Shown here in pieces: positions 4,639-24,358 of a stretch of 64,000 bases of DNA (its first letter is position 1; the number at the start of each line of letters is the position of its first letter). A program made the translations under genes and the position numbers. Where the stretch lies: positions 62,001-126,000 of the forward strand of contig NZ_SGWV01000011.1 of the NCBI RefSeq assembly GCF_004216565.1, in the 5' to 3' direction. The notes below the pieces were generated by a model that had not been told where the DNA came from, made no database searches, and saw only the letters and a program-made list of their open reading frames with translations. The DNA comes from Sphaerotilus mobilis. GTDB taxonomy: Bacteria; Pseudomonadota; Gammaproteobacteria; Burkholderiales; Burkholderiaceae_C.

Positions 4639-4702
4639 ACTGGTGTTCAGGTCCCGAATGCTGTCAGCTAAAGTTCAGTGTTTACCCTGATTCGAACTTC
4701 GA

Positions 4703-4717
4703 TGTATGGAAATTACA
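4703..4717. promoter_or_regulatory. HexR-like operator 2
   Basis: TGTATGGAAATTACA has outer arms TGTA/TACA like site 1, with mismatches in the left core. It ends 47 bp before the aglE start codon, where a repressor could block the transporter promoter. Confidence 0.4.
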
Positions 4718-4764
4718 TTGTCGACGTGGCGGCTTTTGCCACCCCTTTAGCGGAGACAACTTCC

Positions 4765-6033
4765 ATGTCGATCACCTACAAGCAACTCGCTGCCGGGCTC
4801 GTCCTGGCTTTCGGCGGCCTCGCCAGCGCGCAAGCCGCCACCCTGACGATCTCTTGCGGCAACAACGCCGCTGACGTCGAGTTCTGCGGCAAGTTCGCCG
4901 AAGAGTGGGGTCAGAAGAACGGCCACACGGTCAAGATGTACACGCCGCCGGCCAGCACGACCGACAACCTGGCCCTGCTGCGCCAGCAGTTCGCTGCCAA
5001 GTCCTCGGACCTCGACGTCATCATGATTGACGTGGTCTGGCCGGGCGTCATCAAGGACCACCTGGTCGACCTGAAGAAGTACAGCAAGGGCGTCGAGAAG
5101 GATCACTTCCCGGCGATCGTTGCCAACAACACCGTCGACGGCAAGCTGCTGGGCATCCCCTGGTTCACCGACGCTGGCCTGCTGTTCTATCGCAAGGACC
5201 TGCTGGCCAAGCACGGCGTGAAGGTTCCCCAGACCTGGGAAGACCTGGCCGCTGGCGCCAAGAAGATCCAGGACGCCGAGCGCGCTTCGTCGCCGGACTT
5301 CCAGGGCTTCGTGTTCCAGGCCAAGGCGTATGAAGGCCTGACCTGCGACGCGCTCGAGTGGGTCGTCAGCTACGGCGGCGGCACCATCATCGACGGCAAG
5401 GGCAACATCACCATCAACAACCCGCAAGCTGCCAAGGCGCTCGACGCCGCTGCTTCGTGGATCGGCACCATCGCCCCGAGCGGCGTGCTGAACTACGGCG
5501 AGGAAGACTCGCGTGGCGTGTGGCAGAACGGCAAGGCTGCGTTCATGCGCAACTGGCCGTACGCCTGGTCGCTGGGCCAAGCCGCCGACAGCCCGATCAA
5601 GGACAAGATCGGCGTGGCCGCACTGCCCGCCGGCACCGGCCCGGGCGCCAAGAAGGCCGCCACGCTGGGTGGCTGGCAGCTGGCTGTCAACAAGTACTCG
5701 AAGAACGTGGACGCCGCCGCGTCGCTGGCCTTGTACATGGCCAGCGCCGAGATCCAGAAGAAGCGTGCCGTCGGTGGTTCGTACAACCCGACGATCCCGG
5801 CCCTGTACAAGGACGCCGACATCGCCAAGGCGAACCCGTTCATGGTCGAACTGCTGGACGTCTTCACCAACGCCGCAGCCCGCCCGGCCACCGCGACCGG
5901 CCTGAAGTACCCGGAAGTCTCGAACGCTTTCTGGGACGCGACCCACGACGTGCTGTCGAAGAAGTCGACCGGCGCCGAGTCCGTCAAGAAGCTCGAAGCC
6001 AAGCTCAAGCAGATCAAGAAGGCCAAGTGGTGA
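4765..6033 (+). CDS. aglE: Alpha-glucoside ABC transporter, substrate-binding protein
   Basis: This 422-aa extracellular solute-binding protein (family 1) starts at ATG 4765, preceded by GGAG at 4752. An upstream in-frame GTG at 4678 would put 29 residues before the signal peptide and is unlikely. Residues 1-24 form a cleavable signal peptide ending ASAQA. The mature protein shows family hallmarks such as IMIDVVWPGVI, GIPWFTDAGLLFYRKDLL and KAAFMRNWPYAWS. It resembles the trehalose/maltose/sucrose-binding ThuE/AglE group. The order E-F-G-A-K matches the rhizobial agl operon. It should capture alpha-glucosides in the periplasm for AglFGK; the exact sugar cannot be read from sequence. Confidence 0.9.
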   Translation: MSITYKQLAAGLVLAFGGLASAQAATLTISCGNNAADVEFCGKFAEEWGQKNGHTVKMYTPPASTTDNLALLRQQFAAKSSDLDVIMIDVVWPGVIKDHLVDLKKYSKGVEKDHFPAIVANNTVDGKLLGIPWFTDAGLLFYRKDLLAKHGVKVPQTWEDLAAGAKKIQDAERASSPDFQGFVFQAKAYEGLTCDALEWVVSYGGGTIIDGKGNITINNPQAAKALDAAASWIGTIAPSGVLNYGEEDSRGVWQNGKAAFMRNWPYAWSLGQAADSPIKDKIGVAALPAGTGPGAKKAATLGGWQLAVNKYSKNVDAAASLALYMASAEIQKKRAVGGSYNPTIPALYKDADIAKANPFMVELLDVFTNAAARPATATGLKYPEVSNAFWDATHDVLSKKSTGAESVKKLEAKLKQIKKAKW

Positions 6034-6132: not shown

Positions 6133-7046
6133 ATGAAAAACCGCTCGCGCATCGCCTGGACCTTCCTGACCCCGATGCTGATCCTGATGGTGCTGGTGGC
6201 TGGTTGGCCGCTTGCCCGTTCGATCTGGTTCAGCTTCACGGACACGAACATCAACAACATCGCCGAGTACAGCTATGTCGGCTTCGACAACTACTTCTCG
6301 GAGTACGGGCTGTTTGGCTTGTCGATGTTCTCGGCGGAATTCTGGGAGACCGACTGGGGCATCTCGATCAAGAACACCTTTCAGTTCTCGATCGTCTCGG
6401 TGGTCCTGGAGACGCTGGCGGGCCTGGGCGTGGCGATGCTGCTGAACCAGGAGTTCAAGGGTCGTGCGCTGGTGCGCACCGCCGTGCTGGTGCCCTGGGC
6501 GATCCCGACCATCGTGTCGGCCAAGATGTGGGGCTGGATCCTGCATGACCAGTTCGGCCTGATCAACCAGCTGCTGGTCGACTTCGGCTTCATCACGACC
6601 AAGATCGCGTTCACCGCCGATCCGGCCTATGCGCTGTGGACGGTCGTGGCGGTCGACGTCTGGAAGACCACCCCGTTCATGGCCCTGTTGTGCCTGGCCG
6701 CCCTGCAGACCCTGCCTAAGGACTGCTACGAGGCCGCCCGCGTCGACGGCGTGCACCCGCTGCGCCTGTTCTGGAAGGTGACGCTGCCGCTGATCAAGCA
6801 TCCGCTGATGGTTGCGGTGATCTTCCGCCTGCTCGACGCGCTGCGCGTGTTCGACCTCATCTTCGTGCTGACGTCCAACAGCGGCAGCACCATCAGCATG
6901 TCGGGCTTCGTGCGCCGCGACATGGTCGACAACGGCAACCTGGGCTCCGGCTCGGCCGCCTCGACCTCGCTGACCCTGATCATCTTCCTGACTGCCGTGC
7001 TCTTCATGCGCGCCGCCCGGGTCAAGCTCAACGAGGAGTCCAACTG

Positions 7047-7047
<1 letters not shown>
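6133..7047 (+). CDS. aglF: Alpha-glucoside ABC transporter permease (MalF-like)
   Basis: This 304-aa inner-membrane protein has about six predicted hydrophobic segments, the first at residues 8-28 (IAWTFLTPMLILMVLVAGW). The cytoplasmic EAA loop YEAARVDGVHPLRLFWKVTLP (about 198-218) contacts the ATPase. The family is the MalF/ThuF type of carbohydrate permeases. It follows aglE after 99 bp containing two hairpins, and its stop shares one base with the start of aglG (TGATG), so the two permeases are translationally coupled. No regulatory site other than the hairpins is seen. Confidence 0.92.
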
Positions 7048-7883
<836 letters not shown>

Positions 7884-7887
7884 GGCC

Positions 7888-9555
7888 ATGAAGGCAAGCA
7901 ACAGCGGCTGGTGGCGTGGCGGGGTGATCTACCAGATTTACCCGCGCAGCTACCAGGACAGCAACGGCGACGGCATCGGCGACCTGCCCGGCATCACGCG
8001 CCGGCTGGATCACATCGCCGCGCTGGGGGCGGACGGCATCTGGCTGTCGCCCTTCTTCAAGTCGCCGATGAAGGACTTCGGCTACGACATCAGCGACTAC
8101 TGCGATGTCGACCCGATGTTTGGCACGCTGGCCGACTTCAAGGCGCTGGTGGAGCGGGCCCACGAACTGGGCCTGAAGGTGATGATCGACCAGGTGTATT
8201 CGCACACCAGCGACCAGCACCCGTGGTTCAAGGAAAGCCGCTCCAGCCGCGACAACCCGAAGGCGGACTGGTACGTCTGGGCCGATGCCAAGGACGACGG
8301 CACCCCGCCCAACAACTGGCTCAGCATCTTCGGCGGCAGCGCCTGGCAGTGGGACACGCGGCGGCGCCAGTACTTCCTGCACAACTTCCTGACCAGCCAG
8401 CCGGACCTCAACTTCCACCATCCCGAGGTCCAGCAGGCCGTGCTGGACTCGGTGAAGTTCTGGCTCGACTTCGGCGTCGACGGCTACCGGCTCGACGTCG
8501 TCAACTTCTACTTCCACGACCGGCAGCTGCGCGACAACCCCGGTCGCGGCATGCCCGATGGCAGCGACCCGGCGGTCAGCCCGGTCAACCCCTATGCCTG
8601 GCAGTGGCACCACCACGACAAGAGCCAGCCGGAGAACCTGGCCTTCCTGCAGCGCCTGCGCGCGCTGGTCGACCAGTATCCGGACACGACCATGGTTGGC
8701 GAGATCGGCGACGACGACGGCCTGGCCCGCGTCGCGCAGTACACCGCCGCCGGTCCGGACGGCCTGCCGATGCTGCACATGGCCTACTGCTTCGACCTGC
8801 TGGGCGAACCGCACGGCTCGACCTACCTGCACGGCGTGTTCACCCGCTTCAACCAGATCGTCGGCAGCGGCTGGCCCTGCTGGGCCATCACCAACCACGA
8901 CATCCCGCGGGTGGCCACGCGCTGGGGTGGCTCGAATCCGCCCGCCGGCCTGCTCAAGGCCGCCGCCGCGCTGCAACTGAGCCTGCGCGGTACGGCCTGT
9001 CTCTACCAGGGCGACGAGCTGGGTCTGCCCGAGGCCGACATCGCCTTCGAGGACCTGCAGGACCCCTACGGCATCGCGATGTGGCCCGAGTTCAAGGGCC
9101 GCGACGGTTGCCGCACGCCCATGGCCTGGGAGTCGGCCGCCCCGGACCTGGGCTTTGGTGCCGCCGGTGCGTCGACCGCGCCCTGGCTGCCGGTGGCCGA
9201 GTCACACCGCGCGCTCGCCGCTGACCGCCAGCGCGGCCAGGCCGGCTCGGTCTACGAGACCTACCGTGCGCTGCTGGCCTGGCGGCGCGGCGTGCCGGCG
9301 CTGATCCATGGCGAGATGGCCTTGCTGGACGTGCATCCGCAGGTGCTGGCCTTTGTGCGCGAGCACGCTGGCGAGCGCGTGCTGTGTGCCTTCAACCTGT
9401 CCGATGCCGCCGTGGTGTGGACGCCCCAGGCGTCATCCAGGTCGGCCGGCACCCTCGGCGCGGTCCTTGCTGACAGCGGCATGCACGGCGCCGCCGTGTC
9501 GGGCAACAGCGTTGCCTTCGAACCCTGGGGCGTGCTGTTTGCGCGCCTTGGTTGA
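7888..9555 (+). CDS. aglA: GH13 alpha-glucosidase (copy 1)
   Basis: This 555-aa cytoplasmic enzyme has the GH13 barrel opening WWRGGVIYQIYPRSYQDSNG. The catalytic residues are nucleophile D203 (GYRLDVVN), acid E272 (MVGEIGDDD) and transition-state D338 (TNHDIPR). The sequence fits the AglA-type alpha-glucosidases (subfamily GH13_23 in my judgement) that split maltose, sucrose or related disaccharides after uptake. No signal peptide is present. It begins 4 bp after aglG and is followed by a closely similar enzyme, so it is one half of a tandem duplication. Substrate preference cannot be told from sequence. Confidence 0.93.
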   Translation: MKASNSGWWRGGVIYQIYPRSYQDSNGDGIGDLPGITRRLDHIAALGADGIWLSPFFKSPMKDFGYDISDYCDVDPMFGTLADFKALVERAHELGLKVMIDQVYSHTSDQHPWFKESRSSRDNPKADWYVWADAKDDGTPPNNWLSIFGGSAWQWDTRRRQYFLHNFLTSQPDLNFHHPEVQQAVLDSVKFWLDFGVDGYRLDVVNFYFHDRQLRDNPGRGMPDGSDPAVSPVNPYAWQWHHHDKSQPENLAFLQRLRALVDQYPDTTMVGEIGDDDGLARVAQYTAAGPDGLPMLHMAYCFDLLGEPHGSTYLHGVFTRFNQIVGSGWPCWAITNHDIPRVATRWGGSNPPAGLLKAAAALQLSLRGTACLYQGDELGLPEADIAFEDLQDPYGIAMWPEFKGRDGCRTPMAWESAAPDLGFGAAGASTAPWLPVAESHRALAADRQRGQAGSVYETYRALLAWRRGVPALIHGEMALLDVHPQVLAFVREHAGERVLCAFNLSDAAVVWTPQASSRSAGTLGAVLADSGMHGAAVSGNSVAFEPWGVLFARLG

Positions 9556-9594: not shown

Positions 9595-11301
9595 ATGAGC
9601 AGTCTCTCGAACCCGTCGACCTCGGTCACCAAGGCCCCGAACAACGAGTGGTGGCGCAGCGGCGTCATCTACCAGATCTACCCGCGCAGCTGGCAGGACA
9701 GCAACGGCGACGGCATCGGCGACCTGCCGGGCATCACGCGTCGCCTGGCGCATGTGGCCAAGCTCGGCGCCGACGCGATCTGGCTGTCGCCGATCTTCAA
9801 GAGCCCGATGAAGGACTTCGGCTACGACGTCAGCGACTACAACGACGTCGACCCGATGTTTGGCACGCTGGCCGACTTCAAGGCGCTGGTCGACCGCGCC
9901 CATGAGCTGGGCCTGAAGGTCATCATCGACCAGGTGCTGTCGCACTGCTCGGACCAGCACCCGTGGTTCAAGGAAAGCCGCTCCAGCCGCGACAACCCGA
10001 AGGCCGACTGGTTCGTCTGGGCCGATGCCAAGGACGACGGCACGCCGCCCAACAACTGGCTCAGCGTGTTCGGTGGCAGCTCGTGGCAATGGGACACCCG
10101 GCGTCGCCAGTACTACCTGCACAACTTCCTGGCCAGCCAGCCGGACCTGAACTTCCACAACCCCGAGGTGCAGGACGCGCTGCTGGCCTCCGTGAAGTTC
10201 TGGCTCGAGTTCGGCGTCGACGGCTACCGGCTCGACGCGATCAACTTCTGCTTCCACGACGCCGAGCTGCGCAGCAACCCCGGCATCGGCGAGCCCGATG
10301 CGTCCAACCCGACGGTGGCCTCGACCAATCCCTACGCCTGGCAGCGGCACATCTATGACCGCAGCCGTCCGGACGCGCTGGGCTTCCTGCAGCGCGTCCG
10401 CTCGCTGGTCGACCAGTACCCCGACACGACCATGGTCGGCGAGATCGGCGACGAGTCCGGCATGTTGATGGTGGCCCAGTACACGGCCGACTTCGACAAG
10501 CTGCACATGGGCTATTGCTTCGACCTGCTCGCGCCCGATGGCAGCGCCACCTATGTGCGCGGCGTGATCGCCAAGTTCGAACGTGTCGCCCCGACCGCCG
10601 ACAAGGGCTGGGCTTGCTGGGCCCTGTCCAACCACGACTGCGCCCGCCTGGCCTCGCGCTGGAGCACCGGCCTGGATGCCGCCGCGCAGACCGCCATGGT
10701 GCGTGCCGCCGCCGCGCTGCAGTTGTCGCTGCGCGGCAGCGTCTGCATCTACCAGGGCGACGAGCTGGGCCTGCCCGAAGCCGACATCGCCTTCGAGGAC
10801 ATGCAGGACCCCTACGGCATCACGATGTGGCCAGACTTCAAGGGCCGCGACGGCTGCCGCACGCCCTTCCCGTGGGAAGCGGCGGCTCAGGACCTGGGCT
10901 TCAGCCCGGCCGGCACGACGGTCAAGCCGTGGCTGCCCGTCAGCCCGGACCATCAGGCCCTGGCGGTCGACGTCCAGGAGGCCGACCCGGCCTCGACGCT
11001 GCAGGCCTACCGCCGCCTGTTGGCGTGGCGCAAGACCCAGCCGGCGCTGCTGCAGGGCACGCTGACGCTGGTCGGTGAGGACGCCCAGGTGCTGGCCTTT
11101 GTGCGCGAGCACGCCGGCGAGCGCCTGCTGTGCGCCTTCAACCTCAGCGCGCAGCCCGCCACGTTCGCGCTCGATGCCACGACGGCCGTGGCCGAGATCC
11201 TGTCCGACAGCGGCGCGCGTGGCGCGTCGCTGCAGGGCGCGACCCTGGCCTTCGAGCCCTTTGGCGTGCTCTTCGCCCGACTGGCCTCCAAGGCTGGCTG
11301 A
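9595..11301 (+). CDS. GH13 alpha-glucosidase (copy 2, tandem paralogue)
   Basis: This 568-aa GH13 enzyme is very similar to the preceding one over the full length, with long identical blocks such as DFGYD-SDY-DVDPMFGTLADFKALV. Catalytic residues are D214 (GYRLDAIN), E283 (MVGEIGDES) and D348 (SNHDCAR). Differences concentrate near the active-site loops (TNHDIPR versus SNHDCAR; VVNFYFHD versus AINFCFHD), which suggests that the copies prefer different linkages or sugars. An extra N-terminal 13 residues (SSLSNPSTSVTKA) precede the common start. It is cytoplasmic and lies between the permeases and the ATPase. Confidence 0.93.
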   Translation: MSSLSNPSTSVTKAPNNEWWRSGVIYQIYPRSWQDSNGDGIGDLPGITRRLAHVAKLGADAIWLSPIFKSPMKDFGYDVSDYNDVDPMFGTLADFKALVDRAHELGLKVIIDQVLSHCSDQHPWFKESRSSRDNPKADWFVWADAKDDGTPPNNWLSVFGGSSWQWDTRRRQYYLHNFLASQPDLNFHNPEVQDALLASVKFWLEFGVDGYRLDAINFCFHDAELRSNPGIGEPDASNPTVASTNPYAWQRHIYDRSRPDALGFLQRVRSLVDQYPDTTMVGEIGDESGMLMVAQYTADFDKLHMGYCFDLLAPDGSATYVRGVIAKFERVAPTADKGWACWALSNHDCARLASRWSTGLDAAAQTAMVRAAAALQLSLRGSVCIYQGDELGLPEADIAFEDMQDPYGITMWPDFKGRDGCRTPFPWEAAAQDLGFSPAGTTVKPWLPVSPDHQALAVDVQEADPASTLQAYRRLLAWRKTQPALLQGTLTLVGEDAQVLAFVREHAGERLLCAFNLSAQPATFALDATTAVAEILSDSGARGASLQGATLAFEPFGVLFARLASKAG

Positions 11302-11337: not shown

Positions 11338-12474
<1,137 letters not shown>

Positions 12475-12609
12475 ACCTCGGCACACCGGCCCGGGTGGCC
12501 GGTGCGTCGACCCACCTGTGCCGTCCCCGTCCACGCGCGGTCCGCCAGCCGGGCCGCGTGGGGACGCGGCTCGCCGCTTCTCGTCTCACACCGCAGCAGG
12601 AATCGCGTC

Positions 12610-14319
12610 ATGAGCAACCCCTGGTGGAAATCCAGCGTCGTCTATCAGATCTACCCGCGCAGCTTTTGCGACAGCAATGGCGACGGCATCGGCGACCTCA
12701 AGGGCATCACCTCGAAGCTCGACCACCTGCAGGCGCTGGGCGTCGACGTGGTCTGGCTCTCGCCGGTCTACCGCTCGCCACAGGACGACAACGGCTACGA
12801 CATCAGCGACTACCGCGACATCGCGCCCGAGTTCGGCACGCTGGCTGACTTCGACGAGATGCTGGCGGCGATGCACGCGCGCGGCATCAAGCTGGTGATG
12901 GACCTGGTCGTCAACCACAGCTCGGACGAACACGCCTGGTTCCAGCAGGCCCGCAGCAGCCGCGACAACCCCTTCCACGACCACTACATCTGGCGTGAGC
13001 CGAAGGCCGATGGCTCGCCGCCGACGAACTGGGAAGCCGCGTTCTCGGGCTCCGTCTGGGAATGGAACGAAGCGACCGGCGAGTACTACCTGCACATGTT
13101 CAGCCGCAAGCAGCCGGACCTGAACTGGGAGAACCCGGCGCTGCGCCAGGAGGTCTACGGCCTGATGCGCTTCTGGCTCGACCGCGGCGTCGACGGCTTC
13201 CGCATGGACGTCATCAACATGATCTCCAAGCCGTGGCAAGCCGACGGCGGCCTGCCCGACGCGCCGGTGGTGCGCGAGGGCTTCCTGCAGCCCGGCTTCG
13301 CCCTGACCTGCAATGGCCCGCGCCTGCTGGAGTTCCTGCGCGAGATGCGCCATGAGGTGCTGGACCACTACGACACCCTGACGGTGGGCGAAGCGCCGAT
13401 GGCGACCACGCGACAGGGCCGCGAGATCTCCGACCCGGTCGACGGTGCGCTCAACATGCTGTTCCAGTTCGAGCACATGGACCTCGACAGCCAGCCCGGC
13501 GATCCGCGCGGCAAGTGGGCCCTGAAGACGCTGGACCTGCGCGACCTCAAGCGCACCATGGCGCGCTGGCAGGACGAGCTGCACGGCTGCGGCTGGAACA
13601 GCCTCTACCTGAGCAACCACGACCAGCCGCGCCCGGTCTCGCGCTTTGGCGACGACGGCGAACACCGCGTGCGCTCGGCCCAGATGCTCGGCACCTGGCT
13701 GCACCTGCACCAGGGCACGCCCTATGTCTACCAGGGCGAGGAACTGGGCCTGGGCAATGTGCGCTTCGAGCGCATCGAGGACTACCAGGACATCGAGACG
13801 CTCAACATGTACCGCGTCGCGACGAACGAACGCGGCGAGGACCCCGCCGAGCTGATGCGCGCCATCCATGCCAAGGGCCGCGACAACGCCCGCACGCCGA
13901 TGCCGTGGTCGGACGGGCCGCATGCCGGCTTCACCACCGGCACGCCCTGGATCAAGCTCAACCCGACCTATCCGACGGTCAACGCCGCGCAGGCGCTGGC
14001 CGACGAAGGCTCGGTGTTCCATTACTACCGCCGCCTGATCGCCTTGCGCAAGGCACACCCCATCGTGGTCGACGGCCGCCATGACCTGCTGCTGGCCGAG
14101 CATCCGCAGATCTATGCCTACACCCGCACGCTGGGCGCCGAGCGCTGGCTGGTGGTCTGCAACTTCAGCGCCGCCAGCCCCGTCTTCGAGCTGCCGGCCG
14201 ACATCCCCGCCGCGCGCTGGGAGACCGTCATCGCCAACATCGACGAGCCCGCCGGGGTCGATCTGCATGCGCTGCCGCTGCGACCATGGGAAGCCCGTGT
14301 GATCCGCCTGCTCGGCTGA
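12610..14319 (+). CDS. GH13 alpha-glucosidase / oligo-1,6-glucosidase-like enzyme (third)
   Basis: This 569-aa protein starts at ATG 12610 after an AGGAA site; an in-frame upstream start at 12502 has no support because homology begins at WWKSSVVYQIYPRSF. Catalytic residues are D200 (GFRMDVIN), E261 (TVGEAPM) and D338 (SNHDQPR). The QPDLNWENP motif is typical of the oligo-1,6-glucosidase/alpha-glucosidase/TreC subfamily (GH13_31), so this enzyme is not a copy of the two upstream. It probably cleaves isomaltose-type, trehalose-type or maltose-type sugars in the cytoplasm. A trehalose-6-phosphate hydrolase is possible but less likely without a PTS nearby. Confidence 0.92.
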   Translation: MSNPWWKSSVVYQIYPRSFCDSNGDGIGDLKGITSKLDHLQALGVDVVWLSPVYRSPQDDNGYDISDYRDIAPEFGTLADFDEMLAAMHARGIKLVMDLVVNHSSDEHAWFQQARSSRDNPFHDHYIWREPKADGSPPTNWEAAFSGSVWEWNEATGEYYLHMFSRKQPDLNWENPALRQEVYGLMRFWLDRGVDGFRMDVINMISKPWQADGGLPDAPVVREGFLQPGFALTCNGPRLLEFLREMRHEVLDHYDTLTVGEAPMATTRQGREISDPVDGALNMLFQFEHMDLDSQPGDPRGKWALKTLDLRDLKRTMARWQDELHGCGWNSLYLSNHDQPRPVSRFGDDGEHRVRSAQMLGTWLHLHQGTPYVYQGEELGLGNVRFERIEDYQDIETLNMYRVATNERGEDPAELMRAIHAKGRDNARTPMPWSDGPHAGFTTGTPWIKLNPTYPTVNAAQALADEGSVFHYYRRLIALRKAHPIVVDGRHDLLLAEHPQIYAYTRTLGAERWLVVCNFSAASPVFELPADIPAARWETVIANIDEPAGVDLHALPLRPWEARVIRLLG

Positions 14320-14403: not shown

Positions 14404-16377
14404 GTGGCCAAGAACACCTCATCCACCTTGAACGTCGCAGCCCCTGTCCCGGCCGCCGCCGCTCCTGTCGCCACCTTCGACCACCCGGATGTGCGTGTCC
14501 AGCGCGCCCACGCCGCCGTCGCCGCCGCCCATGCCCGCGATCCCCTGTGGCCCGACTTCGCCCGCCGCCTGCAACAGCACCTGGGCACGCTGGTGGGCGA
14601 GCTGGCGCCGCTGTACGGCCACCGGCCCGACTTCGAGGCCTTCCTGAGCCGCCTGCTGCTGACCTGCTGGACGTCCTGGCACGCCCGTGCGGCCGACCTG
14701 CGCTCGCTCGACGCCCGGCGCGAGGCCGAGCCGGACTGGTTCCAGTCGCACCGCATGGTCGGTGGGGTCTGTTATGCCGATCTGTATGGCGGCAACCTGC
14801 GCGGCATCGAGGCCCAGATCCCCTACTTCAAGTCGCTGGGACTGACCTATCTGCACCTGATGCCGCCCTTCCTGTGCCCCGAGCCGCACAACGATGGCGG
14901 CTATGCGGTCAGCAGCTACCGCGACGTCAAGCCCAGCCTGGGCCACATCGACGACCTGCGCCGGCTGGCGCAGAAGCTGCGCGACGAGGGCATCTCGCTG
15001 GTGCTGGACTTCGTCTTCAACCACACCAGCGACGAACATGAATGGGCCCGTGCGGCGCTGGCCGGTGACCCGCGCCACAAGGACTTCTTCTACATCTTCG
15101 AAGGCCGCGAGCAGCCCGACGCCTACGAGCGCACGCTGCGCGAGATATTCCCCGACGAGCACCCCGGCGCCTTCAGCCCGCTGCCCGACAACCGCTGGGT
15201 CTGGACCACCTTCCACAGCTACCAGTGGGACCTGAACTACGCCAACCCGGACGTCTTCGACGCCATGGCCGGCGAGATGCTGGCCATCGCCAACCTGGGC
15301 GTGGAGTTCCTGCGCATGGACGCGGTGGCCTTCATCTGGAAGCGCCTGGGCACCAGCTGCGAGAACCTGCCCGAGGCGCACCAGCTGCTGCGGGCCTACA
15401 ACGCGGTCGCCCGCATCGCCGCGCCGGCCATGCTGTTCAAGAGCGAGGCCATCGTCCACCCGGATGACGTCGTCAAGTACATCGACCCGGCCGAGTGCCA
15501 GATCTCCTACAACCCGCTGCAAATGGCGCTGTTGTGGAACACGCTCGCGACCCGCGAGGTCAACATGCTGCAGAAGGCGCTGGCCGAGCGCCACCACCTG
15601 CCGGCACACACCGCCTGGGTCAACTACGTGCGCAGCCATGACGACATCGGCTGGACCTTCGCCGACGAGGACGCCATCCAGCTGGGCATCCACGGCTTTG
15701 ACCACCGCACCTTCCTGAACCGCTTCTACGTCAACCGCTACCCCGGCAGCTTCGCCCGCGGCGTGCCCTTCCAGGACAACCCGGCCACGGGCGACTGCCG
15801 CATCAGCGGCACGGCGGCCTCCTTGTGCGGGCTGGAGCAGGGCGACCCGCACGCGGTCGCACGCATGCTGCTGCTCTACGGCGTGGCGCTGTCGTCCGGC
15901 GGCATCCCGCTGATCTACCTGGGCGACGAGTTCGGCGCGCTCAATGACATGGGCTACCTGCAGGACCCGGGCAAGGCCGGCGACAGCCGCTGGGTCCACC
16001 GTCCGGCGCGTGACCCGGTGCGCTTCGAGCAGCGGCTCGACCCGGCCACCGACGCCGGCCGCATCTTCGCGGGCCTGTCGCACCTGATCCGCCTGCGCCA
16101 GCACCTGCCGTCCTTCGGCGGCGGTCGTCTGACCCCGTTCTGGTCGGACAACCCGGCCGTGCTCGGCTACCTGCGCCATGGCGAGGGTCAGACCGGTGGC
16201 GGCAACATCCTCGTGCTGGCCAACTTCAGCGAGAAGGAACAGGTCGTCGCCGCGCGGGTGCTCTCGGGCATGCCCGGTGCGGCCGCCGACCTGATCGGGC
16301 AGAACGGCCATGACCTGCGCAGCGACCTGACCCTCGCGCCCTACCAGATGGTCTGGCTGGACTGCCGGCGCGGCTGA
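14404..16377 (+). CDS. Amylosucrase (GH13_4)
   Basis: This 657-aa enzyme starts with GTG at 14404 after a clear AGGAAGGA site. It transfers glucose from sucrose onto alpha-glucan and releases fructose. It is close to Neisseria amylosucrase as I recall that sequence, with shared blocks [66 protein letters not shown] and [11 protein letters not shown]. The catalytic set is D306 (RMDAV), E348 (KSEAI) and D413 (SHDD). Residues 1-30 are an Ala/Pro-rich leader with no signal-peptide pattern. It directly precedes glgB, so linear glucan made from sucrose could be branched at once. A sucrose hydrolase is the alternative. Confidence 0.93.
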
Positions 16378-16471: not shown

Positions 16472-18664
16472 ATGCTCGATGCCGACACCCTTGCCGCCCT
16501 GATGCAGGGCGATCACGGCGATCCGTTCGCGGTGCTCGGCCTGCACCCGCTGGGCGCCGATCCGGCCCTCTCCGGCTGGGTCCTGCGCGTGCTGCTGCCC
16601 GGCGCCGCTGGCGTGCGGGCGCTGCGCCGCGAGGGCGGTGCGCTGCTGGCCGAACTGCCGCGCATCCCCGGCTCGGACGTCTTCGAAGCGACCTTGCCGC
16701 CGAGCGCCGAACGCGAGGTCTACGTGCTCGACGTCGACTGGGGCACCCACCGCCACACGATGGAGGACGCCTACCGATTCGGCTCGTTGCTGGGCGACAC
16801 CGACCTGTGGCTGCTGGCCGAGGGCACGCACCACCGGCCCTATGAACAACTCGGCGCGCACCCGGTCGAGATCGGCGGCGTGGCCGGCACGCGCTTCGCG
16901 GTCTGGGCACCGAGCGCTCGGCGCGTCTCCATCGTCGGGGCCTTCAACAACTGGGACGGCCGCCGCCACATGATGCGGCTGCGCCGCGAGTGCGGCGTCT
17001 GGGAGATCTTCGTGCCGCATGCCGGCGTGGGCGACCTCTACAAGGTCGAGATCAAGGGCGCCGACGGCCAGCTGCACGTCAAGTCCGACCCGATGGGCTT
17101 CCGCGCCGAGATGCGGCCGCAGACCGCCTCGATGATCCACGGCCTGCCGGCGGTCGTGCCGTCCGACCCGGCCCGCCGCGCGGCCAACTCGCTCAAGGCG
17201 CCGATCTCGGTCTACGAGGTCCACCTGGGTTCCTGGCGCAGCAACGAGCGTGGCGAGTGGCTGACCTACCGCGAGATCGCCGACCAGCTGGTGCCCTATG
17301 CGCAGGACATGGGCTTCACCCACCTGGAGCTGCTGCCGGTGCACGAGCACCCCTTCGACGGCTCCTGGGGCTACCAGCCGACCGGCCTGTACGCGCCGAC
17401 CTCGCGCTTCGGCTCACCGGAGGACTTCCGCTACTTCGTCGCCAAGGCGCACGAGGCCGGCATCGGCGTGATCCTCGACTGGGTCCCCGGCCACTTCCCG
17501 ACCGATGCCCACGGCCTGGGCAAGTTCGACGGCAGCCACCTCTACGAACACGCCGACCCGCGCGAAGGCTTCCACCAGGACTGGCAGACGCTGATCTACA
17601 ACTACGGCCGCACGGAGGTCCGCAACTTCCTCGTCGGCAACGCCCTGTACTGGCTGGAGCGCTTCGGCGTCGATGGCCTGCGCGTCGACGCGGTGGCCTC
17701 GATGCTCTACCGCGACTACAGCCGCAAGGACGGCGAGTGGATCCCCAACCGCTGGGGTGGCCGCGAGAACCTGGAGGCGATCGACTTCATGCGCCGCATG
17801 AACCACATCGTCGGCACCCAGCGCGAGGAGGCCATGACCGTGGCCGAGGAATCGACCGCCTTCCCCGGCGTGTCGCGCCCGCCCAGCCCCGACCTGCAGG
17901 CCGGCGGCCTGGGCTTCCACTTCAAGTGGAACATGGGCTGGATGAACGACACGCTGCGCTACATGCAGCAGGACCCGGTGCACCGCAAGTACCACCACGG
18001 CCAGATGACCTTCGGCCTGGTCTACGCCTTCAGCGAGAACTTCATGCTGCCGCTCTCGCACGACGAGGTGGTGCACGGCAAGGGCTCGATCCTGGCCCGC
18101 ATGCCCGGCGACGAGTGGCAGCGCTTTGCCAACCTGCGCGCCTACTACGGCTTCATGTGGGGCCACCCCGGCAAGAAGCTGCTGTTCATGGGCTGCGAGT
18201 TCGGCCAGGGCACCGAGTGGAACGCCAACACCTCGCTGCCGTGGCACATGCTCGACCACCCCGCGCACCAGGGCGTGCAGCGCTGGGTGCGCGACCTCAA
18301 CCGGGTCTACCGCCACCACGGCGCGCTGCACCAGCGCGACATCAGCCCGGACGGCTTCCAGTGGCTCAGCCACGACGACGCCGAGAACTCGGTGCTGTCC
18401 TTCGTGCGCTGGGGCGACGACGGCACGCATGTGGTCGTCGTCTGCAACTTCACCCCGGTGGTGCGCGAGAACTACCGCATCGGCGTGCCGCAGGCCGGGG
18501 CCTACCGCGAGCTGATCAACAGCGACGCGGCCGTCTACGGCGGCAGCGGTGTCCACAACCCCGTGCGGGCGACCGAGCCGAGCGCCTGCCATGGCTGCGC
18601 CCAGTCCCTCTCGCTGACCATCCCGCCGCTGGCGACGGTGATGTTCGTGGTCGAGGCCGGCTGA
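16472..18664 (+). CDS. glgB: 1,4-alpha-glucan branching enzyme
   Basis: This 730-aa protein has the full bacterial layout: an N-terminal beta-sandwich region (residues 1-110, [12 protein letters not shown]), a CBM48 module (about 115-225, [23 protein letters not shown]), the GH13_9 barrel with nucleophile D406 ([16 protein letters not shown]) and acid E459 ([15 protein letters not shown]), and [11 protein letters not shown] with the third acidic residue. It forms alpha-1,6 branches in glycogen. Length matches the E. coli type. No glgA, glgC or glgP lies near it; its partner here is amylosucrase 94 bp upstream, so the glucan backbone may come from sucrose. Confidence 0.97.
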
Positions 18665-18677
18665 GGCCAGGACCCGG

Positions 18678-18706
18678 CCCGGGCCCAGTGCTTGCATGGG
18701 TCCGGG
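18678..18706 (+). terminator. Hairpin between glgB and the PhK-like gene
   Basis: Arms at 18678-18687 and 18697-18706 form a 10-bp stem with one G-U pair and a 9-nt loop, followed by only TTTG. It may act as a weak terminator or attenuator before the last gene of the island. Confidence 0.4.
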
Positions 18707-18777
18707 TTTGCGACCGTTCACGCGCTTGCAGATTCGAACCCCGCCTGTAACTGGAAGGATGTGACACTCCCGCGGTG

Positions 18778-18789
18778 AGGGTTAACCCT
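18778..18789. promoter_or_regulatory. Palindrome AGGGTTAACCCT
   Basis: This perfect 12-bp palindrome lies 20 bp upstream of the start codon of the 1198-aa gene. Its place next to the ribosome site suggests an operator, but no protein is known for it here. Confidence 0.35.
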
Positions 18790-18808
18790 TAAACATCGGG
18801 AGACTTCC

Positions 18809-21800
18809 ATGACGGCAAGACAAGCGGCAGCCAGCCGCAAGGCCAGCGCCGAGGCAGACCGCCAGACCGCCAAGGCCATCGCCGCGCAGGCCGCCCCGGC
18901 CGCCCCGGCCGCCCCGGCCGATCCCTTGGCCGGCTGGGTCGAACAGGCCCGTCAGATCATCCTGTCGCGCCAGGACCCGAACACCGGCCTGCTGCCGGCC
19001 AGCACCGCCATCACGGTGCACGGCGACTACACCCACGCCTGGGTGCGCGACAACGTCTACAGCATCCTCGCCATCTGGGCCCTGGAACTGGCCCACCGCG
19101 AGCGCGATCCGGGCCTGTCGGCCGAGCTGCGCGGGCGGGTCGAGGCGCTGATGCGCGGCCTGCTGGCGGCCATGCTCAAGCAGGCCCACAAGGTCGAACG
19201 CTTCAAGCACACCCAGCATCCGCTGGACGCCCTGCACGCCAAGTACGCGACGACCACCGGCGACCCGGTGGTGGGCGATGCCGAGTGGGGTCACCTGCAG
19301 ATCGACGCGACCGCGATCTTCCTGCTGCAGCTCGCGCAGATGAGTGCGAGCGGCCTGTCCATCGTGCGCGAGCCGCACGAGGTGGCCTTCGTGCAGAACC
19401 TCGTGCACTACCTCGCCCGCGCCCACCGCACGCCCGACTACGGCATCTGGGAGCGTGGCCACAAGCAGAACCAGGGCCGCGCCGAGATCAACGCCAGTTC
19501 GGTGGGCATGGCCAAGGCCGCGCTGGAGGCCATCGCCGACGCCGACCTGCTACCCGGCCGGGCGCCGCGCATCCTCGTCCAGGGCGACGACATCGCCCAC
19601 GCCCGCAGCACGCTGGCCGCGCTGCTGCCGCGCGAGTCCGAGAGCAAGGAGACCGATGGCGCGCTGCTGTCGGTGATCGGCTACCCGGCCTTCGCGGTCG
19701 ACGACCCGGCGCTCATCGCGGCCACCCGCGAACGCATCGTCGCCAAGCTGCAGGGCCGTTACGGCTGCAAGCGTTTCCTGCGTGACGGACACCAGACGGT
19801 GGTCGAGGACCACAGCCGCCTGCACTACGAACAGGGCGAGCTGCAGCGCTTTCGGCGCATCGAGAGCGAGTGGCCGCTGTTCTTCACCTACCTGCTGATC
19901 GACGCCCGGCTGCGCGAGGACCAGGCCCAGGCGGCCGACTACCGGGCGCGGCTGGAGGCGCTGATGGTCGAACGCGACGGCCAGCGCCTGCTGCCCGAGC
20001 TCTATATCGTGCCGGCCGAGCACATTGAGGCCGAGCGCGAGCAGCCGCACAGCCAGGACCGCGTCCCCAACGACAACGTGCCGTTGGTCTGGGCCCAGAG
20101 CCTCTACCTCGTTGGCGCCCTGCTGCAGGAAGGCTGGGTGCGGCCCGAACAGCTCGACCCGCTGAACCGGCAACGTGCGCTCGATGCGCTCAAGGGCCCG
20201 GCGCCGGCCGTGGCGGTCGACGCCCCCGCGACGACGGCGCCGCAGGCCACCGTCCAGCTGGCGTTGCTCGCGACCGATCCGCTGGTCCAGGCACGGCTGG
20301 CGGTGCACGGCATCGCCGCCCAGACCTTGGCCGAGGTCCGCCCGCTGGCCGAGGTCCGCTACGCCGACGAGCTCGACCAGATGCTCACCGACCTGGGCCG
20401 CTGGAACGACCTGGGCCTGAGCGGCCGGCCGCCGCAGCGGCTGGGCGCGCTGGCCACCAGCAGGGTCTACCGGCAGGGCGGGCGCACGACCGTCTTCCTG
20501 CCTTCGCTGTTCAACCGGCAGGGCTTCTACCTTGGGTTGGACAACGGCCTGCTGATCGACGAGCTGCGCGCCGAGATCGCCTGGCTCGGTCGCCATGCCC
20601 GGCACCTGCCGTGGGCGGTCGACCTGCATGTGGCCGCCGACGATGCCACGCCCGCGCTGGTCTACCGCCGCGAACGGCGCCCGACCCGGCCGCTGATGGT
20701 TGTGCTGGTCACCCAGCCGATGCTGGACACGCGCGGCGCCGACGGCCTGCTGGCGTGGCTGCGTGGCCTGCAGGCGCCGGTCGAAGACAGCGAGCAGGGC
20801 CGCGCCGCAGCGGCCGCGCTGCGGGTCGGCACGCTGGCCGAGCTGCTGCCGCAGACGGCGGTCTGCAGCGTCGACCACCTGCCGGCCTTGCCGGCCCAGC
20901 CGCGTTCCGCGCCCGACACCGGCGCGGTCGCCGCCGCCGTCCTGCACTGGGAAGAGGCGGCCACCCGCGCGCTCAGCCCGGCGCGCGCGGCCACCTTGGA
21001 GCGCGAGCACGACCCGTCCTTCCACCAGCGCCTGCTGGCCCGCAGCCGCAATCCCTACGAGCAGATCGAGGTGCTGTCGCTGCTGTCGCAGCGCTGGGGG
21101 CTGGATGCGCGGTCCTCGCTGGGCGGCACGGTGCGTGAACTGGCCGAGGCCATCTACGCCCGCGCGGGCGCCGAACGCCGCTGGGGCGTGCTGCGCCGCG
21201 CGGCGGCCGTGCTCGACATCCAGGACCAGACGCTGGAGGAAGCCGCCGCGCAGATCGTCGGCCGCGGCAAGCAGGTCTCGCTGGGCCGCGCCTACGACGT
21301 CCAGGCCATCATCGCCTCGCCGCTGGGCAACGCCGAGCTGTTCGAGCGTCTGCGCCGCTTCGGCGGTGACGATGCCCGCGCCCGCCTGCTGATCCAGGAG
21401 CTTGTGCTGCTGCTGGGCACCATGATCAAGGCCGACCCTGGCCTGTTCAAGGGCACGCTGACCTTGCGGCCGTGGTACTTGCTGCTGCTGATCACCGGCC
21501 GGCTGGCGCTGGAACACGCGATCAGCCAGGCCGAGGCCTTCGACCACCTGCTCGACTGCAGCCCGCAAGCCCTGATGGCGCGGCTGCGCGAGGTCATCGC
21601 CCGCGAACAGGAAATGGGCCGTGACCTCGTGCGCCTGCAGTCGCTGCAGGTGCACGAGACCGGCGACGGCGAGACCGCGCTGGTGGCGGTCGACTTCTCG
21701 GCCTCGCACGACCCGGCACTGCCCGACGACGTGCCCGGCTGGCTGGCGTGGCGCGAGCTCAGCGGCGTGCTGACCCGCGTGCCGGGCGACTTCCACGAGC

Positions 21801-22405
21801 GCATCTGGGCCCTGCTGCGCCAGGTGCCCGGCCTCGTCATCGGCGACCAGCTCGACGCACGCAACCGGCTCGACAGCACGCTGGCCCGGGCCGACAGCAC
21901 ACCCGGCGAACGCGGCTTCGCGCTGCAGGTCGAAGAGCTGCTGGAGAAGATCCAGGCGCCCGAATACCGCCAGCTGACGATCGAGGCCCTGCTGGCCTTG
22001 AGCGACATCTTCCGCGCCAACGCCGAGCTGCGGCTGGGCAGCTGGCTGGTGATGGACGTGCTGATCGGCATCGCCGTGCGCCTGGGCTGGCAAGAACGCC
22101 GCATCGGCCACGTCGCCGCCGACTACAACGAACACCGCGCCCAGGCCTGGACCGAGTTCTACGCCAACCCACCCCACCGCGTCGCCAACCTCGTGATGGC
22201 CGCTGTGCGCTATCTGGTCGACCAGGCGAGGGCGGAGGCGGCTGAAGCGGCGGCTCAGGCCGAAAAAGCAGCGGCAGACGCGGCGGCCGAAGCCGCGCCG
22301 CCGGCGGAGCTTGTCGAGCCGCTTGCCGAGCCGGTCGCCGAGCCGCCCGAAGCCCCGGTCGCCATCGACGCCACGCCGGTCGAGGTGCAGGACGACGCCC
22401 GGTAG
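18809..22405 (+). CDS. Phosphorylase-kinase alpha/beta-like GH15-domain protein
   Basis: This 1198-aa protein begins after a GGGAGA site. Residues about 35-460 form a GH15-type alpha/alpha barrel very like the N-terminus of animal phosphorylase kinase alpha subunit (AWVRDNVYSILAIW, VERFKHTQHPLDALHAKY, EINASSVGMAKAALEAI, KLQGRYGCKRFLRDG, DPLNRQ). The likeness continues past the barrel (LSGRPPQRLGALATSRVY about 539-556; RAGAERRWGVLRRAA; VPGDFHERIWALLRQVPGL; APEYRQLTIEALLAL), as in the PhK alpha/beta C-terminal domains. The barrel acid E215 (YGIWERG) and a possible base E397 (LPELY) are kept. Residues 1130-1198 are an Ala/Glu/Pro tail. It may hydrolyse or bind branched glucan, or regulate its metabolism. 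The function is not known. Confidence 0.9.
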   Translation: MTARQAAASRKASAEADRQTAKAIAAQAAPAAPAAPADPLAGWVEQARQIILSRQDPNTGLLPASTAITVHGDYTHAWVRDNVYSILAIWALELAHRERDPGLSAELRGRVEALMRGLLAAMLKQAHKVERFKHTQHPLDALHAKYATTTGDPVVGDAEWGHLQIDATAIFLLQLAQMSASGLSIVREPHEVAFVQNLVHYLARAHRTPDYGIWERGHKQNQGRAEINASSVGMAKAALEAIADADLLPGRAPRILVQGDDIAHARSTLAALLPRESESKETDGALLSVIGYPAFAVDDPALIAATRERIVAKLQGRYGCKRFLRDGHQTVVEDHSRLHYEQGELQRFRRIESEWPLFFTYLLIDARLREDQAQAADYRARLEALMVERDGQRLLPELYIVPAEHIEAEREQPHSQDRVPNDNVPLVWAQSLYLVGALLQEGWVRPEQLDPLNRQRALDALKGPAPAVAVDAPATTAPQATVQLALLATDPLVQARLAVHGIAAQTLAEVRPLAEVRYADELDQMLTDLGRWNDLGLSGRPPQRLGALATSRVYRQGGRTTVFLPSLFNRQGFYLGLDNGLLIDELRAEIAWLGRHARHLPWAVDLHVAADDATPALVYRRERRPTRPLMVVLVTQPMLDTRGADGLLAWLRGLQAPVEDSEQGRAAAAALRVGTLAELLPQTAVCSVDHLPALPAQPRSAPDTGAVAAAVLHWEEAATRALSPARAATLEREHDPSFHQRLLARSRNPYEQIEVLSLLSQRWGLDARSSLGGTVRELAEAIYARAGAERRWGVLRRAAAVLDIQDQTLEEAAAQIVGRGKQVSLGRAYDVQAIIASPLGNAELFERLRRFGGDDARARLLIQELVLLLGTMIKADPGLFKGTLTLRPWYLLLLITGRLALEHAISQAEAFDHLLDCSPQALMARLREVIAREQEMGRDLVRLQSLQVHETGDGETALVAVDFSASHDPALPDDVPGWLAWRELSGVLTRVPGDFHERIWALLRQVPGLVIGDQLDARNRLDSTLARADSTPGERGFALQVEELLEKIQAPEYRQLTIEALLALSDIFRANAELRLGSWLVMDVLIGIAVRLGWQERRIGHVAADYNEHRAQAWTEFYANPPHRVANLVMAAVRYLVDQARAEAAEAAAQAEKAAADAAAEAAPPAELVEPLAEPVAEPPEAPVAIDATPVEVQDDAR

Positions 22406-22512
22406 GGCGGGCGGGGCGCGTCCGCGACGGGCTGGTGCCGATGGGCCGCTGGATCGGCAAACTTCACACCGACAACGCTTACGCCACCTCACCCCGAACC
22501 GGATCCCCACCC

Positions 22513-23295
22513 ATGATCATCACCACCGAAGCCGTCGACATCCCGACCGCCGACGGCGCCGCGATGCGCGGCCTGCTGACCCGCCCGGCCGCGCCGGGGC
22601 CCTGGCCCGGCATCGTCTTCTACTCGGACATCTTCCAGGTCACCGGCCCGATGCAGCGCGCCTGCGCCCGGCTGGCGGGCCACGGCTACACCGTGCTGGC
22701 GCCGGACATCTATCGCCGCCTCGAAGCCCCGGGCACGGCCATCCCCTTCGACGACGCCGGCCGCACACGCGGGCTGGACAACGCGCTGCGCACGCCGGTC
22801 GCGGCCTTCGACGCCGATTGCCGCGACGCGCTGTCCTGGCTGGGCCGCCACCCCGCGGTCGCGCCCGGGCAGATCGGCGCGGCCGGCTTCTGCATCGGCG
22901 GCCATCTGGCGATGCGCGCCGCGCTGCAGCCCGAGGTCCGCGCCACCGTCTGCTTCTACGCCACCGGCGTTCACAACGGCAAGCTCGGTCAGGACGACGA
23001 TGCCGGCACGCTCGCGGCCATGCCGCGCATCGGCGGCCAGCTGCTGCTGGTCTGGGGCGAACACGACCCCCACATCCCGCCCGAAGGCCGCGCCACCGTC
23101 GAAGCCGGCTTGCGCGCCGCTGGCGTGCGCGTCGAGCAGCGACTGCACCCGGCCGAACATGCCTTCATGCGCGACGAGGGTCCGCGCTTCGACCCGGCCT
23201 GCACGGATGCGGCCTGGGGTCAGGCGCTGGGGTTCTTCGGGAGCGTGTTCGGGAACGCGTCCGACGACGGATCCGAAGGCACGCGCGCCGCGTGA
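22513..23295 (+). CDS. Dienelactone hydrolase family protein
   Basis: This 260-aa alpha/beta-hydrolase has the dienelactone hydrolase cysteine nucleophile in GFCIGG (about residue 137), the aspartate in WGEHDPHIP and histidine in PAEHAFMRDE. Cytoplasmic DLH-like enzymes open lactones or small esters, and the physiological substrate is rarely known. Start at ATG 22513 gives the usual MIITTEAVDIPTADG opening; the in-frame ATG at 22435 gives an unlikely leader. It follows the PhK-like gene by 107 bp with no terminator visible, so it may be transcribed with it, although there is no metabolic link. Confidence 0.88.
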   Translation: MIITTEAVDIPTADGAAMRGLLTRPAAPGPWPGIVFYSDIFQVTGPMQRACARLAGHGYTVLAPDIYRRLEAPGTAIPFDDAGRTRGLDNALRTPVAAFDADCRDALSWLGRHPAVAPGQIGAAGFCIGGHLAMRAALQPEVRATVCFYATGVHNGKLGQDDDAGTLAAMPRIGGQLLLVWGEHDPHIPPEGRATVEAGLRAAGVRVEQRLHPAEHAFMRDEGPRFDPACTDAAWGQALGFFGSVFGNASDDGSEGTRAA

Positions 23296-23302
23296 GCCCG
23301 CC

Positions 23303-24358
23303 TCAGTCCTGCGCCACCGCCACCATCCGCCCGGACGCCGCCGCCTCGACCACCGCCTCGGTGATGCGCAGGTTGTTCAGGCCGTCGCGGGCGCTGACCA
23401 GCGGGGCGGTGGTGCCGCGCACGACCTCGATGTAGTGGGCCATCTGCAGGCGGATCGGGTCTTCGCGGACCGTCTCGACCGTGTCGCTGTGCAAAGGTTT
23501 CCACCAGGAGCGGTCCTCGGCACCCGGGTAGGACTTCAGCCGCATCGTTGGCACCGACAGGCTGCCGTCGGTGCCGCTGACGACGTAGCAGTCCTCGTCC
23601 GGGTGGTGGTCGTAGGCCTTGTTCTCTGCGCTGGTCTGTTCCCAACTGCGCGGGCTGGCGGCGCAGTCGCTGAGCAGGAAGGTGCCGAGCGCGCCGCTGG
23701 CGAAACGCAGGTTGATCGCCACGGTGTCCTCGACGACATGGCCGCGCACCGCATGGGAGGCGAAGGCCTGCACCGCGACGATCTCGCCGCACAACATCCG
23801 CAGGTTGTGGACCTCGTGGATCAGGTTGAGCAGGATCGGCCCGCCGCCTTTTTCGCGCCGCCAGGGGCCGGCGTCGAAGTACGCGTCGGGCTTGTAGAAG
23901 GTGGCGCTGCCGGTCAGGCCGACCACGCGGCCAAGCCGGCCGGCGGCGATCACCTCGCGGGCCTTGGCCATGATGGGGCTGTGCGCGCGGTGATGGCCGA
24001 TCAGCACGCGGGCCGCGCGCGCCTCGACCTCGCGGACCAGCACGGCGGCTTCGGCCACGGTCGGCGCGATCGGCTTCTCCAGCAGGATGGGCAGGCCGGC
24101 CGCGAGGCAGCTCAGCGCCTGCGGCACATGCAGCGCGTTGGGTGTGGCCAGCACGATGCCGTCGGGGCGATCGCGCACGATCAGCTCGTCCAGCGATGCA
24201 TACAGCGGCACGCCGCGCGCTTCGGCCACGGCCCGAGCGGCCGGTGACGGGTCGACGATGGCCGACAGCACGGCGCGGTCCGGCCACTGGCCCACGGCGT
24301 CAAGGTGGGCCTGTCCGATGTAGCCAGCGCCGGCGACGGCGATGCGGGTGAGGGTCAT
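23303..24358 (-). CDS. Gfo/Idh/MocA-family oxidoreductase
   Basis: This 351-aa NAD(P)-dependent dehydrogenase has the N-terminal Rossmann motif AVAGAGYIGQAHLDA (about 6-20), the family signature LLEKPIAPT (about 92-100) and the substrate-site stretch LINLIHEVHNLRMLCGE (about 180-196). Such enzymes oxidise inositols, sugars or sugar acids. The gene ends 8 bp from the dienelactone hydrolase gene (convergent) and is divergent from adhC. An inositol or glucose-type substrate would fit the nearby mmsA and sugar genes, but this is speculation. Confidence 0.88.
   Translation of the reverse strand: MTLTRIAVAGAGYIGQAHLDAVGQWPDRAVLSAIVDPSPAARAVAEARGVPLYASLDELIVRDRPDGIVLATPNALHVPQALSCLAAGLPILLEKPIAPTVAEAAVLVREVEARAARVLIGHHRAHSPIMAKAREVIAAGRLGRVVGLTGSATFYKPDAYFDAGPWRREKGGGPILLNLIHEVHNLRMLCGEIVAVQAFASHAVRGHVVEDTVAINLRFASGALGTFLLSDCAASPRSWEQTSAENKAYDHHPDEDCYVVSGTDGSLSVPTMRLKSYPGAEDRSWWKPLHSDTVETVREDPIRLQMAHYIEVVRGTTAPLVSARDGLNNLRITEAVVEAAASGRMVAVAQD

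Follow-up and report, generated by a model that had tools for sequence, protein, structure and literature searches.

The gene at 18809-22405 of the DNA stretch studied here (64,000 nucleotides of the Sphaerotilus mobilis contig NZ_SGWV01000011.1, called the window below) encodes a protein of the phosphorylase kinase (PhK) alpha/beta family, KPBB, to which it belongs by sequence, with homology running through domains D1 to D5. We suggest, with a probability of about 0.58, that this stand-alone relative of two kinase subunits is a cytoplasmic exo-enzyme of the GH15 (glucoamylase-like) type, which acts on alpha-1,4-glucan in glycogen metabolism. This reading is based on homology, a fold match, residue conservation, gene neighbourhoods and the patchy occurrence of phosphorylase. 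From these we infer the activity, substrate, location, oligomeric state and physiological role of the protein, and the direction of its evolution. A preliminary description, made from the DNA letters alone, had allowed for either an enzyme or a sensor, and the evidence now leans to the enzyme.

Pfam places a GH15 domain (E 2e-69) and a KPBB_C domain (E 2.1e-79) in one chain. When the protein was searched against the PDB with phmmer (E up to 1), the sole matches were PhK alpha (9.2e-180) and PhK beta (1.3e-140), with the alpha subunit matching residues 40-594, 751-935 and 963-1098. Residues 620-1149 alone (E up to 0.01) still match only PhK alpha (8.4e-30) and beta (2e-23). The C-terminal half thus rules out a homology confined to the barrel; an alignment ending there was not seen, and the full-length relationship put forward in the preliminary description is borne out. 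The three segments that it had singled out, LSGRPPQRLGALATS, VPGDFHERIWALLRQ and EYRQLTIEALLAL, all lie within PhK blocks aligned by phmmer. A profile was also built from 32 bacterial rows, leaving out the duplicates or fragments L065, L066, L014 and L067. It aligns with PhK beta as a single stretch over profile positions 1-856, including a homologous D5, and with PhK alpha as three stretches.

The same description had called for a structural comparison with PhK, and this agrees. An AlphaFold model of residues 40-1150 (predicted local distance difference test score, pLDDT, 82.0; predicted template modelling score 0.78) is aligned by Foldseek with PhK alpha and beta chains over 1118-1149 columns, gaps included, at template modelling scores of 0.64-0.73 and 28-34% identity. 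The root mean square deviation of 12-14 A means that domain angles differ or that the model is imperfect. The next-best solved enzymes after PhK are both of the GH15 type, isomaltose glucohydrolase KfIG (5z3a) and dextran dextrinase (9ju0), which share the barrel fold and catalytic residues with the window protein but differ from it in the residue after the catalytic base. To our knowledge, neither has a KPBB_C region.

KPBB is an established, patchily spread family that is already named in Pfam, though no NCBIfam model matches the window protein at E 0.001. Leptothrix discophora has the closest relative, at 90% over the best segment and 94% over the alignment. Within the genus of the window genome, a GH15 match lies in a frame of at least 1110 residues in 11 of 13 genomes, our own among them. 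KPBB_C was found in 5 of 250 genomes in a sample of the family and in 5 of 299 in a sample of the phylum (our own included in both). In the cyanobacterial phylum, 34 of 146 genomes have a match, which passes the cut-off in 33. The family is therefore not a unique horizontal oddity, since it occurs in these 33 genomes, in scattered Proteobacteria and in the same genus. The cyanobacterial proteins are uncharacterised and have open frames of 1067-1145 amino acids; among the 13 that were aligned, 12 are 45-49% identical to the window protein and one (L082) is 42% identical. Synechococcus elongatus belongs to this group and was the sole KPBB_C positive among 14 control genomes. In the literature search, we recognised no functional description of bacterial PhK alpha/beta proteins among the matches listed. 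Work by Pallen in 2003 reportedly deals with glucoamylase-like domains in PhK, and may discuss bacterial relatives.

The active site of D1

The preliminary description had judged residues E215 and E397 to be intact. They align with Glu185 and Glu371 of human PhK alpha, which are named as its catalytic pair in the portion of PMC10978961 cited here. Both are invariant in all 32 bacterial rows, together with R80, D81, W160, Q164, D166, N421 and N423, and the motifs Y...W[VM]RD and WGHLQ.D are present in every row. In GH15 enzymes, as far as described in the cited portion of PMC12446779, a Tyr hydrogen-bonds the general base, the glucose at subsite -1 is held by an Arg-Asp pair, and alpha-1,4-specific glucoamylases have in common a Trp of the alpha3-alpha4 loop. 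When the bacterial profile was forced into a global alignment with seven ordinary bacterial GH15 proteins (E 2e-5, probability 53%), Y74, W78, the RD pair, E215 and E397 fell on their counterparts. In a local alignment, the template of which held one wrong row (L106), only E215 and E397 did so. By way of this weak global alignment, the protein appears to carry the GH15 residue set, namely the catalytic Glu pair, the Arg-Asp of subsite -1, the Trp and the Tyr. W160, which was matched by motif, is probably the Trp of the alpha-1,4 glucoamylases, in contrast to the pattern in KfIG. On the conserved catalytic residues and the GH15 profile alignment, we reject a degenerate barrel. D1 is also the best conserved part of the protein, with 55-65% identity to the window protein in the 18 most distant bacterial rows, against 21-49% for D2-D5.

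Human PhK differs from this pattern. Of 122 D1 columns that are invariant in bacteria, human alpha retains 109 and human beta 86. The alpha subunit (8jfk and related structures) keeps the Glu pair, W160 and the Arg-Asp pair, but lacks Y74, the adjacent His-Gly (the HG loop) and the N421/N423 pair. The beta subunit is different at R80, W160 and E397 as well. According to section 7 of PMC10978961, activity of human PhK on maltose, isomaltose and glycogen was not detected, and that section leaves open why the intact-looking glucoamylase site of alpha is silent. The absence of Y74 and the HG loop would fit as a simple reason, and it offers a residue-level account of why human alpha may be dead. 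Since the bacterial proteins have both features, they are predicted to be active.

Gene neighbourhoods, phosphorylase and kinases

Genes for glycogen or alpha-glucan metabolism directly adjoin the PhK-like gene in four of the eight proteobacterial lineages that were seen on both sides. This exceeds a rough chance model which assumes six glycogen genes among 3500. The lineages are our own count from the trees (Leptothrix/Sphaerotilus, Pelomonas, L004, Ferrovum, L007, G527, G433 and G389/G405) and exclude two fragments, L014 (upstream side only) and L067 (downstream side only). In the window, the gene follows amylosucrase and branching enzyme, just as the preliminary description had it. Seven further Leptothrix/Sphaerotilus loci have amylosucrase in this row as well, immediately 5' of the PhK-like gene in six (L003, L006, L009, L013, L015, L064) and with glgB between in L001; its place is taken by a GH13 gene in L002 and by malK in L005. 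Other lineages have rows of the classic glycogen genes. Two Ferrovum metagenome-assembled genomes have the order glgC-glgA-PhK, with a 4-base overlap with glgA in L012 and with glgX-glgB on the opposite strand, while in G389/G405 the genes of the row PhK-glgB-glgX are about 40 and 25 bases apart. G527 (L068) has the row glgB-glgX-malQ-PhK, yet that genome has no PF08323 (GlgA-type) and no GT35 match. Ten of the neighbour proteins score above NCBIfam cut-offs (GlgX, GlgC, GlgA, GlgB or 4-alpha-glucanotransferase). At high-G+C loci, antisense open reading frames confuse simple frame picking, and neighbour labels there come from similarity searches and family scans. The alpha-glucan setting proposed earlier is thus right, and its link to glycogen is stronger because other bacterial lineages share it.

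The preliminary description had also noted neither a phosphorylase nor a gamma-like kinase. This holds for the window, where genome-wide family searches gave no Pkinase or phosphorylase match, but not for the genome, which has several Pkinase domains elsewhere and a single GT35 phosphorylase beside glgA and glgC on contig C2. Among 16 distinct carriers of the PhK-like gene (17 were tested, with G116 and G549 counted as one genome), GT35 is present in 11, three of which (G544, G547, G548) match PF00343 weakly and in part, and absent in five. These absences include genomes without stated completeness that were reached through named loci, Ferrovum among them. GlgA is present in 16 of the 17 carriers. 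Of the 15 carriers with GlgA, four, including one cyanobacterium, are without phosphorylase. In the phylum sample, from which our own genome and two with weak GlgA matches were excluded, this is so for 4 of the 71 genomes that match GlgA strongly (p 0.03). The comparison is only suggestive of GT35 absence being commoner among carriers. Because phosphorylase is absent from 5 of 16 carriers, its regulation cannot be the general job of the family, and a general phosphorylase regulator is ruled out.

Six kinases of the window genome were used as queries to search 35 flanking loci, second copies L065 and L066 included. No serine/threonine kinase-like open reading frame of at least 100 residues was found, though the six queries find each other. 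With none in the window either, we reject a linked kinase module within the scope of these searches.

Proposed function, alternatives and origin

We propose that D1 would be a catalytic barrel, with E215 as acid, E397 as base, and R80-D81 and Y74 at subsite -1, and that W160 would mark a preference for alpha-1,4 chains. D2-D5, with KPBB_C, probably serve in self-association or in sitting on glycogen particles; self-association is suggested because D5 mediates dimerisation in PhK beta. In Sphaerotilus, the enzyme would trim or turn over the glucan that the neighbouring amylosucrase makes from sucrose and GlgB branches. Where a carrier has no phosphorylase, glycogen breakdown from chain ends could depend mainly on this enzyme.

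Several observations weigh against this proposal. The model has pLDDT below 50 at modelled-chain positions 174-183, which contain E215. The profile match to ordinary GH15 proteins is weak (probability 53%), and a D1 sequence profile run against the PDB returned PhK and one chance hit, with no ordinary GH15 chain. Human alpha retains the same Glu pair yet showed no activity according to section 7 of PMC10978961, so an intact pair is no proof of activity. Residue 398, after the base, is Leu in 29 rows, Val in two and Ile in one, where inverting GH15 enzymes have Gln (the cited portion of PMC12446779). Glycogen genes were not found beside the PhK-like gene in G433, L004 and L007, nor on the visible side of fragments L014 and L067; the contig of Pelomonas KK5 does have a glgB-glgC-glgA-glgX row, but at a distance of about 15 kb, with its GH13-malK part at about 10 kb. 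When 13 cyanobacterial loci were searched with glgA, glgB, glgC, glgX, glgP and malQ, only L076 had one nearby, a glgA 2 kb upstream. The excess of missing phosphorylase is marginal, and it falls to 3 of 14 (p 0.08) when the two Ferrovum genomes are counted as one.

The silent human alpha subunit also speaks for a protein that binds glucan without cutting it. Here D1 would hold non-reducing alpha-glucan ends, and D2-D5 would signal by contact to glycogen enzymes, GlgB or GlgA for example. The C-terminal domains are larger than a hydrolase needs, and the gene is located with synthesis and branching genes, both of which would suit such a sensor or scaffold. We nevertheless consider it unlikely, though worth keeping in view, because the subsite -1 set is invariant in the bacterial rows, including Y74 and the loop that alpha lacks, and because conservation is highest in D1 and not in the presumed signalling part. 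A different chemistry in the same barrel is a retaining transglucosidase that, like dextran dextrinase, would take glucose off alpha-1,4 ends and attach it to the polymer by alpha-1,6 or other links. Dextran dextrinase is one of the closest enzymes of solved structure, and inverting and retaining GH15 enzymes alike have the Glu pair. Where inverting enzymes have Gln after the base, dextran dextrinase has Ser and the window protein Leu, so that the sequence does not decide between hydrolase and transglucosidase. Branching enzyme is moreover a frequent neighbour. Dextran dextrinase, however, requires its N-terminal domain N1, as stated in the cited portion of PMC12446779, for which Pfam shows no match in the window protein. 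We thus regard this chemistry as improbable.

The homology to PhK alpha and beta, with the Pkinase domains and the one GT35 phosphorylase of the genome, could be taken to mean that the protein regulates a bacterial serine/threonine kinase controlling glycogen phosphorylase, in a PhK-like complex. Membership of such a complex is not supported, and we think it very improbable. The flanking loci show no kinase, though one could be encoded elsewhere, and 5 of 16 carriers have no phosphorylase to control. Each positive genome has one KPBB_C match, with no second alpha/beta paralogue, and the protein ends in ...VEVQDDAR, without the C-terminal CaaX farnesylation motif that the cited portion of PMC10978961 describes for human alpha and beta.

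It is plausible from the sequences that a bacterial protein of this kind was ancestral to PhK, and the intact-looking sugar-cutting site is a hint that an ordinary glycogen enzyme gave rise to the animal regulator. When 32 bacterial and two human rows were placed in an unrooted tree, both human proteins fell among those of cyanobacteria (support 83/99 for a 9-row set, and a weak 56/92 for the wider branch). Once beta and seven near-duplicate rows are left out, alpha groups with the cyanobacterial proteins, of which 12 then remain (98/94). A stronger inference from these trees is forbidden by long branches, an uneven residue composition and two human sequences as the only eukaryotes. Our tentative scenario, which we hold at somewhat less than even odds, is that the scaffold is older than the kinase. 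It would have been a working bacterial glycogen enzyme in glycogen operons, able to replace phosphorylase where that was absent. Eukaryotes would have taken a cyanobacterial-type copy and duplicated it into alpha and beta, with loss of the Tyr and HG loop in alpha and of the acid-base set in beta; the kinase would have been added later, with the pair as its sensor arm.

Since the bacterial relatives combine a full site with glycogen gene rows and no adjacent kinase, they make the question of the inactivity of PhK alpha directly testable. They would also be a simple, expressible system for finding what D1 acts on and what D2-D5 do, and they suggest a route from a metabolic enzyme to a regulator that is mutated in glycogen storage disease.

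The gene row in the window

Table 1. Features of the PhK-like gene and its row, with positions in the window
Feature	Position	Strand	Basis
Extracellular solute-binding protein, sugar type	4678..6033	+	
ABC permease	6133..7047	+	
ABC permease	7047..7883	+	
GH13 enzyme, alpha-glucosidase-like	7888..9555	+	Pfam, NCBIfam
GH13 enzyme, alpha-glucosidase-like	9595..11301	+	Pfam, NCBIfam
malK-type ABC ATPase	11338..12474	+	Pfam, NCBIfam
GH13 oligo-1,6-glucosidase-like	12502..14319	+	Pfam; 1uok, 3.4e-221
Amylosucrase	14404..16377	+	1g5a, 3.4e-260
glgB branching enzyme; only GlgB_N-bearing gene found in the genome	16472..18664	+	NCBIfam, genome search
Shine-Dalgarno-like GGGAG, 6 nt 5' of ATG	18798..18802	+	Read from sequence
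PhK alpha/beta-type protein, 1198 aa, GH15 and KPBB_C	18809..22405	+	Pfam, phmmer, profile, Foldseek
D1, GH15-like (alpha/alpha)6 barrel, residues ~40-460	18926..20188	+	Pfam, phmmer, Foldseek, invariant columns
Y74 of YxxxWxRD motif; aligns with GH15 Tyr contacting general base; Gln in human alpha	19028..19030	+	Alignments
E215, putative general acid (human alpha Glu185)	19451..19453	+	Alignments
E397, putative general base (human alpha Glu371; Lys in beta)	19997..19999	+	Alignments
KPBB_C (D5-like), residues 902-1142	21512..22234	+	Pfam

A promoter and terminator scan of 18500-22800 gave nothing useful. The glgP-glgA-glgC-glgX row of the same genome (L086, G000 C2:215000-232000) is on another contig and shows no glgB. 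Since the glgB beside amylosucrase is the only GlgB_N-bearing gene found in the genome, one branching enzyme may serve both the sucrose-fed and the classic route of glycogen synthesis. The open reading frame at 23000-24247 (415 amino acids), downstream of the PhK-like gene, gave no match to Pfam or NCBIfam at E 0.001 and is perhaps not a gene. In other genomes, a gene divergent from the PhK-like gene recurs in the cyanobacterial loci L008, L077, L079 and L082, and the one scanned, that in L008, is a WecG/TagA-type glycosyltransferase. A histidine kinase gene adjoins the PhK-like gene in two cyanobacterial loci, L073 and L080.

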